A DNA stretch of 64,000 nucleotides from Streptomyces sp. SCL15-4 (lineage in GTDB: Bacteria > Actinomycetota > Actinomycetes > Streptomycetales > Streptomycetaceae): contig NZ_JAOBTQ010000001.1 of the NCBI RefSeq assembly GCF_033366695.1, positions 5,580,001 through 5,644,000 of the forward strand, given 5' to 3'. Made by a program: the position numbers and the translations under genes. The notes under the pieces were generated by a model. It had not been told where the DNA came from, did not search any database, and saw only the letters and a list, made by a program, of their open reading frames with translations. Positions 2,945 through 54,182 of this stretch are shown piece after piece. How positions within the stretch are numbered: position 1 is the first letter of the stretch; each line of letters opens with the position of its first letter.

Positions 2945-3919
2945 GTGAGGGACACGAAAGAGAGCCGGCTGCTCCTGGTCCTGCTGGTCGCCATCGCGTT
3001 CGCGCTGATCACGGTGGACATCCGCGGAGGGCGGAACTCCCCGGTCGACGGTGCCCGGCATGCCGCCGCCGCGGCGTTCGGCCCGGTCGAGGACGGCTTG
3101 TCCGGCGCGGTCGACCCGGTCGGCGACGCCGTCGCGGCCGTCCGGGACTCGGGCAGCCGGCACGACCGGCTCGCCGCGCTGGAGAAGGAGAACGCGGCCC
3201 TCAAGGCCAAGCTCGGCAGCGACGACCGCAACCGCAGCCGCCTCAAGCAGCTCGACAAGCTGATGAAGATCGCCGGCGAGGGGCAGTACGCCATCAAGGG
3301 CGCCGAGGTCATCGCCATCGGGTCGGCGCAGGGCTTCTCCTGGACCATCACCATCGACGTCGGCGCCGACGACGGCATCAAGCGGGACATGACGGTCCTC
3401 AACGGCGACGGGCTCGTCGGCCGGGTCACCACCGTCGGTCCCGGCACGGCCACCGTGCTGCTCGCCAACGACCCGGACTTCACCGTCGGCACCCGCATGG
3501 AGGGCAGCGACGAACTCGGCTTCGCCTCCGGCCAGGGCGACCGGCCGCTGCGCGTGGAACTGCTCAACGGCAAGGCGGAGGTGAAAAAGGGCGACCGGCT
3601 CGTCACCTTCGGCTCGCAGTCCGACAAGCCGTTCGTGCCCGGCGTCCCGGTCGGCGTGGTCTCCCGCGTGGACCCCTCCGGCGGCGGCCTGACCCGGACC
3701 CTGTCCGTCACGCCGTACGTCGGCTTCACCAAGCTCGACATCGTCGGCGTGGTCGTGCAGGGCCCGAAGAAGGACCCGCGGGACACCGTGCTCCCGGTCA
3801 AGCCGAAGCCGGTGCCGACGCCGACGGTCACCGTCACCGTCAACCCGTCGGCCGGCGCCACCGCCCCGAACACCGACAACACCGACAACACCGACACCGC
3901 CAGCGACGAGCAGCAGTAG
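2945..3919 (+). CDS. mreC: Rod shape-determining protein MreC
   Basis: A 324-residue bitopic membrane protein. One N-terminal membrane segment (about residues 8–24) is followed by a periplasmic coiled coil (SRHDRLAALEKENAALKAKL region, about 75–100) and the two beta-barrel domains typical of MreC (about 115–275). The C-terminal tail from about residue 280 is Pro/Thr/Asp-rich with TDNTDNTD repeats and is probably disordered. MreC links MreB to the PBP2/RodA synthase. The GTG start at 2945 has TGAGGAAGGG (2921–2930) upstream at a rather long spacing. mreD follows 12 bases after the stop. Confidence 0.95.
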   Translation: MRDTKESRLLLVLLVAIAFALITVDIRGGRNSPVDGARHAAAAAFGPVEDGLSGAVDPVGDAVAAVRDSGSRHDRLAALEKENAALKAKLGSDDRNRSRLKQLDKLMKIAGEGQYAIKGAEVIAIGSAQGFSWTITIDVGADDGIKRDMTVLNGDGLVGRVTTVGPGTATVLLANDPDFTVGTRMEGSDELGFASGQGDRPLRVELLNGKAEVKKGDRLVTFGSQSDKPFVPGVPVGVVSRVDPSGGGLTRTLSVTPYVGFTKLDIVGVVVQGPKKDPRDTVLPVKPKPVPTPTVTVTVNPSAGATAPNTDNTDNTDTASDEQQ

Positions 3920-47839: not shown

Positions 47840-47912
47840 GGGGCTATAGCTCAGTTGGTAGAGCGCCTGCATGGCATGCAGGAGGTCAGGAGTTCAATTC
47901 TCCTTAGCTCCA
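47840..47912 (+). tRNA. tRNA-Ala(GGC), second identical copy
   Basis: The 73 bases are identical to those at 43352–43424, with anticodon GGC and no encoded CCA. Flanking sequence differs apart from short GC-rich stretches. Confidence 0.97.
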
Positions 47913-50897: not shown

Positions 50898-51136
50898 GGG
50901 GGCAACTCCGAGCAGTTCCGGGAAAGCGGTCCCGCTGCCGCACTCTAAGTGGCGCCATACCGATCAGTACGGGGTTCGAGTTATTGCGTTTGTTATCGAC
51001 GGACAATCTGATGGGAGCGGTGTCCCATAGGAGGAGGTACGCGAAGTAATCGCTGATCTCTGTTCGGTTCCGGCGGGCTTCGTGACATGTCGATCAGGGA
51101 TACGGAAGCGCGTCGCGGCTTGCTCAAGGGCTGCGG

Positions 51137-51142
51137 TACCCT
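51137..51142 (+). promoter_or_regulatory. -10 element of the leuS leader transcript
   Basis: TACCCT followed by six bases (AGCGCC) and then the ATG of the leader peptide at 51149, a spacing that would start transcription at the ATG. No clear -35 is visible. The rest of 50898–51136 shows no gene. Confidence 0.55.
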
Positions 51143-51148
51143 AGCGCC

Positions 51149-51187
51149 ATGCGTGCCGTACGCCTTCTGCTTAGCGGGCCGCGCTGA
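51149..51187 (+). CDS. leuS leader peptide with three consecutive Leu codons
   Basis: A 12-codon reading frame, [12 protein letters not shown] then TGA. The three adjacent Leu codons are CTT CTG CTT; CTT is rare in Streptomyces. It has no ribosome site and lies six bases after a -10 element, so it would be translated from a leaderless message. It precedes a hairpin-plus-T-run terminator and leuS, which is the layout of a classical amino-acid attenuator. Confidence 0.75.
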
Positions 51188-51193
51188 TCAGTA

Positions 51194-51258
51194 CCGACCC
51201 CGGCCCAGCCGTGAGGTCGGCATCGGCGCGGCGTCCCCTCCTGTGCGAGGGGTTTTTT
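51194..51258 (+). promoter_or_regulatory. leuS transcription attenuator
   Basis: The terminator stem CCCCTC (51235–51240)/GAGGGG (51247–51252) is followed by TTTTTT (51253–51258), rare in this genome. Upstream, CCGACC (51194–51199)/GGTCGG (51215–51220) forms a first hairpin, and GAGG at 51213–51216 can instead pair with CCTC at 51237–51240, giving an antiterminator. When charged tRNA-Leu is scarce the ribosome would stall in the leader peptide and allow leuS transcription. Confidence 0.75.
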
Positions 51259-51299
51259 CATTTCCGCAGGCAGAGACGATCGATGGAGCTTTGAGGATC

Positions 51300-54182
<2,883 letters not shown>

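Follow-up and report, generated by a model that had tools for sequence, protein, structure and literature searches.

The closest described counterparts of the element analysed here are found in other streptomycetes. Classical attenuators with an antiterminator have been predicted upstream of leuS in Streptomyces avermitilis and Streptomyces coelicolor, according to the passages available from Seliverstov 2005 (PMC1262725), and the reannotation of Streptomyces lividans TK24, in its available text, lists from RNA-seq a leader, leuL2, that is "transcribed leaderless" and carries a hairpin and uridines (PMC8079986). The leuS leader element has thus already been described for other Streptomyces and, because the leuS leaders of S. 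coelicolor, S. avermitilis and S. lividans are published, our core claim is already known. The leader in the window (the whole stretch of 64,000 nucleotides from Streptomyces sp. SCL15-4 that was analysed) has the same 12-residue length as leuL2 with one residue different, and shares with it the leaderless reading, the hairpin, the U stretch and the gene that follows; compared with leuL2 and the S. coelicolor and S. avermitilis predictions, as far as the available parts of those sources go, a different strain is concerned, and the P1 helix, a rule for CTT codons and a wide distribution are added here. No paper on the wider range or on the P1 helix was found in the open-access literature, and 'leus' occurs 0 times in the main text of a Streptomyces griseus term-seq paper (PMC8914203). 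Two results cited in the accessible sections of PMC1262725 count against a leuS attenuator, namely that the leuA leader of S. coelicolor did not fit classical attenuation and that changing the candidate codons in the ilvB leader of the same species had no effect.

Other Actinobacteria also have attenuator leaders that are leaderless or nearly so, as stated in the available portions of PMC11857589 and PMC9031893. For example, the start codon of the Corynebacterium glutamicum ilvBNC leader is a single nucleotide away from the 5' end (where the passage has start of translation, transcription is assumed to be meant) and a hairpin adjoins its terminator, as at leuS, although that hairpin shares GCC with the terminator whereas P1 shares no bases with it (PMC11857589, in excerpt). 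The mycobacterial polycysteine ORFs (Canestrari 2020, as summarized in the available part of PMC9031893) are likewise leaderless short ORFs with regulatory codons, but these are cysteine codons and are described as acting on translation of downstream genes. A leader with a Leu run is also part of the LEU element of leuA in Actinobacteria, and our covariance model matches leuA leaders too; that element is described, however, as a pseudoknot reaching the Shine-Dalgarno sequence (PMC1262725, sections available), and S. lividans leuL1 differs in being without a typical terminator (PMC8079986, sections available). The leuL, trpL, hisL and thrL leaders of Escherichia coli similarly combine a leader ORF with a codon run, an intrinsic terminator and a target gene for the same amino acid; unlike in the leuS leader, their antiterminator is visible by folding, and the leuS leader, by contrast, is predicted to be leaderless.

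The 164 bases before leuS hold TACCCT, a leader ORF and a GC-rich hairpin with a T6 run, and the features of the locus are as follows, in window coordinates.

51137..51142, + strand: -10 element TACCCT (TANNNT), six bases before the leader ATG, without a -35 match
51149..51187, + strand: leader ORF of 12 codons, whose start is the predicted transcription start; the S. lividans orthologue leuL2 is reported leaderless
51164..51172, + strand: candidate regulatory Leu codons CTT CTG CTT, from the codon count over 103 leaders
51178..51188, + strand: 5' arm of the P1 helix (codons P, R and stop), a conserved stem with covariation
51194..51220, + strand: putative inner hairpin P2, CCGACC (51194-51199) with GGTCGG (51215-51220), in long-loop members only
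51222..51232, + strand: 3' arm of the P1 helix, ATCGGCGCGGC, 0-2 nt from the terminator
51235..51252, + strand: terminator hairpin CCCCTC-CTGTGC-GAGGGG with a 6-nt loop, from the terminator scan and covariation
51253..51258, + strand: T6 tract, read from the window sequence
51292..51296, + strand: Shine-Dalgarno-like GAGGA of leuS, found by eye
51300..54182, + strand: leuS, leucyl-tRNA synthetase (TIGR00396)

The ATG at 51149 is followed by the codons CGT GCC GTA CGC CTT CTG CTT AGC GGG CCG CGC TGA, ending at 51187. A first-pass annotation of this DNA had described the leader ORF, its adjacent Leu codons (two of them CTT) and the terminator hairpin with T6 before leuS, all of which is right at the level of single bases, and its placing of TACCCT six bases before the leader ATG agrees with the coordinates 51137-51142 and 51149. 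The identity of LeuS is given by TIGR00396 (914.5 bits against a cut-off of 548.4). Two terminator-like sites lie in 50900-51400, where shuffled sequences give 0.2, the second being weak and inside the leader ORF. A scan of the leuS upstream region returned 0 promoters with both sigma-70 hexamers, so that the leader promoter receives no support from a -35 element. Within the 64-kb window, TANNNT stands 5-8 nt before 14 of 3253 ATG or GTG codons, and among ATG/GTG ORFs of 7-25 codons on both strands the leader is the sole case that joins LLL to such a TANNNT. The CTT codon is rare in this DNA, accounting for 0 of 76 Leu codons in leuS and 3 of 254 in six ORFs of the window including leuS. No Rfam family, T-box or other, was found at the leader, the six matches (E up to 5, 4227 families) all lying elsewhere. 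That the leader might be an N-terminal part of LeuS was ruled out because the reading frames differ, the leader ORF beginning at 51149 and the leuS frame being open from 51087. In a single fold of the window's leader the Leu codons are unpaired with the GAGGA of leuS. A tRNA gene (Rfam tRNA, 70 bits) lies upstream of the leuS region at 47840-47912 on the + strand.

Conservation shows that the leader, as a sequence element, is beyond chance. The leader pattern is present in 359 of 392 Streptomyces genomes, counted by leader sequence rather than by checking each position before leuS singly, and a control pattern read backward gave no match. Among the 33 genomes without the pattern, 25 match at no more than one mismatch, some of these matches being unrelated, such as one that by eye lies inside another coding stretch in a locus with no LeuS (L050). 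When 13 pattern-negative Streptomyces were rechecked with LeuS, the protein was found in 10 and a leader variant, for example MRAVRRLLSGPR, in all 10. Three Streptomyces genomes (G001, G045 and G297) showed neither leader nor LeuS at E 1e-30 in a search with the window's LeuS type, and G001 is an assembly that is 79% complete. In the family, the leader stands upstream of leuS in 61 of 61 genomes from 17 genera, and in every one of them TANNNT is found 6-7 nt before the leader start codon. The Leu codons and the terminator are kept in the leuS leaders of both Streptomyces and the family, a check that the first-pass annotation had itself named.

Outside the family, a rule-based scan found the leader in 32 of 60 loci (15 of the order and 45 of the class), these being every one of the 15 genomes from the order's other families, and 45 of the 105 class genomes outside the genus with a LeuS match, mostly those carrying the window's LeuS type. 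In the remaining 28 the rule found no leader, and a covariance model finds two (L133 and L162). Together with the 61 family leaders and the 10 from rechecked Streptomyces, these 32 make up a set of 103 leaders, gathered by requiring a TANNNT 5-8 nt upstream. Two checks are free of this promoter rule: the family result, in which no genome was lost, and a search with a promoter-free leader pattern, which gave 39 stretches, 38 of them leaders (L269 is not), with TANNNT 5-8 nt upstream in 36 of the 38 (34 at 6-7) against 112 of 14958 ATG/GTG codons in the same DNA; the two leaders without TANNNT at that distance are from Serinicoccus. The same test shifted 12-56 nt upstream was positive in 0-2 of 103 leaders, and a Shine-Dalgarno-like motif before the leader was seen in 0 of 103. 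Both marks of a leaderless start are present, namely a -10 element at a distance of 6-7 nt and the lack of a Shine-Dalgarno sequence. The leaderless leader of the first-pass annotation is thereby supported by conserved spacing, in addition to the RNA-seq reported in the available text on S. lividans leuL2.

Two helices are conserved in these leaders, P1 and the terminator. P1 consists of GCCGCGCUGAN, which holds the codons P, R and stop, paired with NUCRGCGYGGC just 5' of the terminator. Over 99 distinct leaders the 11 pairs of P1 are formed in 96% of cells and the 8 pairs of the terminator in 92%, as averages. In an alignment of 65 distinct sequences, made with the model and fitted to the structure, 95.6% of cells are paired, and both-side changes occur in 11 of 19 pairs against a shuffle mean of 4.7, a number that none of 500 shuffles reached; displacing the partner by 1-3 columns lowers pairing to 36-53%. 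A covariation scan gave no third helix, the best pairable extra pairs being isolated and scoring like non-pairing columns (columns 29 and 140, for instance, pair in 88%). The geometry is nearly fixed: in 102 of 103 leaders there are 8 nt from the first base of the final Leu codon to the start of P1, and in 101 of 103 P1 is separated from the terminator by 0-2 nt, while its loop ranges from 6 to 100 nt. CTT serves as the final Leu codon in 99 of the 103 and CTC in 4. In five leaders (L144, L146, L147, L161 and L178) the stop codon comes before P1 and the 5' arm of P1 is retained, so that the conserved Pro-Arg end reflects the RNA rather than the peptide.

The covariance model (R1) was built from 91 of the 103 leaders, and for this reason neither its searches nor the 65-sequence covariation is independent of that set. 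It matched 72 of 77 sources on recheck, most of the 77 having been picked as known carriers, and within the class it hits 128 of 296 genomes, from 57 of 114 genera. In a phylum sample, 10 of 149 matched, 8 of them in the same class; of the other two, G826 has a leuS leader (L243) and G856 lacks a Leu leader (L244). Twenty stretches, chosen mainly as second, weak or off-leuS matches, were fetched and proved to precede leuS (5), leuA (4 or 5), leuC (2) or citramalate synthase (6), with one contig end and one without a leader; their genes were named by NCBIfam for L234, L236, L237, L238 and L242, by tblastn for the five leuS, and by likeness for the rest. Two of them (L237 and L238, from G635 and G721) have a Leu-rich leader with a LEU-element-like CTCGTCGCGG upstream of leuC, not leuA. 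Six stretches (L234, L239, L240, L245, L246 and L247, family f19) lie upstream of citramalate synthase (by NCBIfam for L234 only) and hold a leader with a run of branched-chain codons, for example MPSQVLIIVRRAG*, a P1-like helix over the stop codon, and a terminator; as predicted from their sequences, these leaders have the architecture of the leuS leader with Ile, Val and Leu codons.

The promoter-free matches include Jiangella, Kribbella, Actinopolymorpha, Amycolatopsis, Goodfellowiella, Kineosporia, Serinicoccus and Arsenicicoccus, and one lies in a record titled Chloroflexi MAG. A LeuS match stands behind the leader in 37 of the 39 loci, of which 28 are nearer the window's LeuS and 9 nearer another type, as typed by the higher score (L284 is a near tie, and some loci hold a short piece of LeuS only). 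Six long alignments put the identity of this other type to the window's LeuS at about 38-40%. Actinopolymorpha pittospori (L277) has tandem leuS genes, one per type, each with its own copy of leader, P1 and terminator (552-650 and 3362-3463); the second LeuS, of 767 aa, lacks most of the stretch between NWIGRS and a second conserved-looking motif, which we take to be the editing domain. In Actinopolymorpha alba (L274, 6401-6505) the second leuS leader has leader and P1, and its terminator, by eye, is seemingly lost.

The locus has two of the features of a ribosome-mediated attenuator, a short leader ORF with a run of Leu codons and an intrinsic terminator between leader and gene. We consider it likely that it is a leucine-responsive transcription attenuator of leuS with a leaderless leader, as the first-pass annotation had proposed; conservation and the published data on the S. 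lividans orthologue, in their available form, support this view. Ribosome-mediated attenuation is probably the best reading, and its leucine response is inferred from the codons. Transcription would start at or beside the A of the leader AUG, as reported for S. lividans and inferred for the present strain, and ribosomes would therefore begin the peptide without a Shine-Dalgarno sequence. On general grounds that apply to leaderless mRNAs, such a leader may depend on intact 70S ribosomes, as the first-pass annotation had also proposed. With sufficient charged tRNA-Leu the ribosome would cross the Leu codons, reach the stop codon within P1 and depart, after which folding of P1 and the terminator would release a transcript about 110 nt long. 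Should charged tRNA-Leu be scarce, perhaps chiefly that for the rare CUU, the ribosome would halt at a point where its leading edge rests on the P1 base, and read-through into leuS would be favoured.

The ON structure that would carry such read-through is, on the folding and conservation evidence, not the antiterminator first proposed, GAGG with CCTC. Both motifs are present at 51213-51216 and 51237-51240, but this pairing was rejected because GAGG is not conserved and sits in the 6-100 nt loop of P1, its presence at that place being limited to 3 of 31 Streptomyces loci (one of them the window; L008 not parsed) and to 12 of the 103 leaders. A pairing between the Leu codons and the 3' arm of the terminator, spotted by eye, was also rejected, as it is missing from the conserved stems. 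Equilibrium folding is uninformative here, since the terminator is favoured in the E. coli controls as well (probability 0.96-1.00). A masked measure was therefore used, in which the RNA is hidden as far as 12 nt beyond the first base of the final Leu codon, and pairing of the terminator 5' arm is read before the 3' arm is made. By this measure no antiterminator was detected in the leuS leaders (mean pairing 0.27, above 0.5 in 11 of 103; 0.16 in the window's own leader), whereas E. coli leuL gave 0.60, trpL 0.71, hisL 0.68 and thrL 0.58; the control is imperfect, hisL still giving 0.68 when the ribosome is placed at the stop codon and thrL already 0.51 without a ribosome. For the leuS leaders, moving the ribosome to the stop codon gave a higher mean of 0.37, above 0.5 in 23 of 103, which is opposite to the expectation of the classical model.

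Among detailed forms of the attenuator, a classical three-structure switch is put forward tentatively, and may well not hold; in it a weak antiterminator, between GCGYGG of the P1 3' arm and CUGNGC of the terminator loop, would form once a stalled ribosome opens the base of P1. Antiterminators reported in two species (Seliverstov 2005, PMC1262725, in the part available) are in keeping with it, and the longest run between strand 2 and the loop is at least 5 in 80 of 103 leaders (0.78, against 0.40 for shuffled loops), although these counts are not independent because the sequences are related. The expected 2:3 pairs exceed those of shuffled loops in 76 of 103 leaders at footprint +14, 63 at +16, 62 at +18 and 73 at +20, but footprints +9 and +12 do no better than shuffled loops (31 and 45 of 103). 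The pairing of strand 2 with the loop also lacks covariation, and the terminator loop is not kept in some distant members.

Clear covariation is limited to P1 and the terminator, which fits a switch of two hairpins without an antiterminator, in which P1, flush on the terminator, would hinder the terminator in or at the RNA exit channel; a stalled ribosome would let P1 form, and a ribosome at the stop codon would remove it and leave the terminator to act. The 0-2 nt spacing points the same way, as does the reach of the ribosome: if its front edge is taken to lie 12 nt beyond the codon in the A site, simple arithmetic leaves P1 almost free while the ribosome is on the first or second of the three Leu codons, and has the ribosome cover all of the P1 5' arm once it is at the stop codon. 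Hairpins beside terminators are usually harmless, however, which counts against this switch; P1 and the terminator have no common bases and therefore can coexist, and read-through is predicted when no ribosome is present. Similar positional logic, with a ribosome at the stop masking an ON helix, has been proposed for the Mycobacterium tuberculosis ilvB1 leader in the available text of PMC13236596. Overall we regard this switch as unlikely, and it would be equally doubtful to speak of a two-hairpin-only class of actinobacterial attenuators, defined by a leaderless ORF, last codons in a helix flush on the terminator and no base-sharing antiterminator, over much of Actinomycetes and before two types of LeuS.

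A constitutive or growth-rate-dependent premature terminator, with a translated leader whose Leu codons have no regulatory role, would be in line with the ilvB leader of S. coelicolor, where altered codons were without effect (cited in the accessible part of PMC1262725), but the preference for rare CTT at the last Leu position (99 of 103, against 0 of 76 in leuS) and the almost invariant spacing from the Leu codons to P1 make it quite improbable. Action in trans by the terminated leader RNA or peptide, as claimed in the available account of peTrpL of Sinorhizobium, would suit the strong conservation of the leader RNA and is very improbable, given that cis structure explains this conservation and that the leader precedes leuS in 37 of 39 loci.

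The leuS leader is a real, functional-looking and widely conserved element, judged by its sequence. What is added to its biology is a covarying P1 helix of 11 bp by which the codons P, R and stop are linked to the terminator's base, the CTT rule, and the presence of the element in many Actinomycetes, where it stays with leuS across two types of LeuS. As the ON structure is other than the one first proposed, the switch could be tested with few mutants. The leader probably adjusts the level of the leucine-charging enzyme in this Streptomyces and, if this is true, the charging of tRNA-Leu would be tied to leuS in antibiotic producers.
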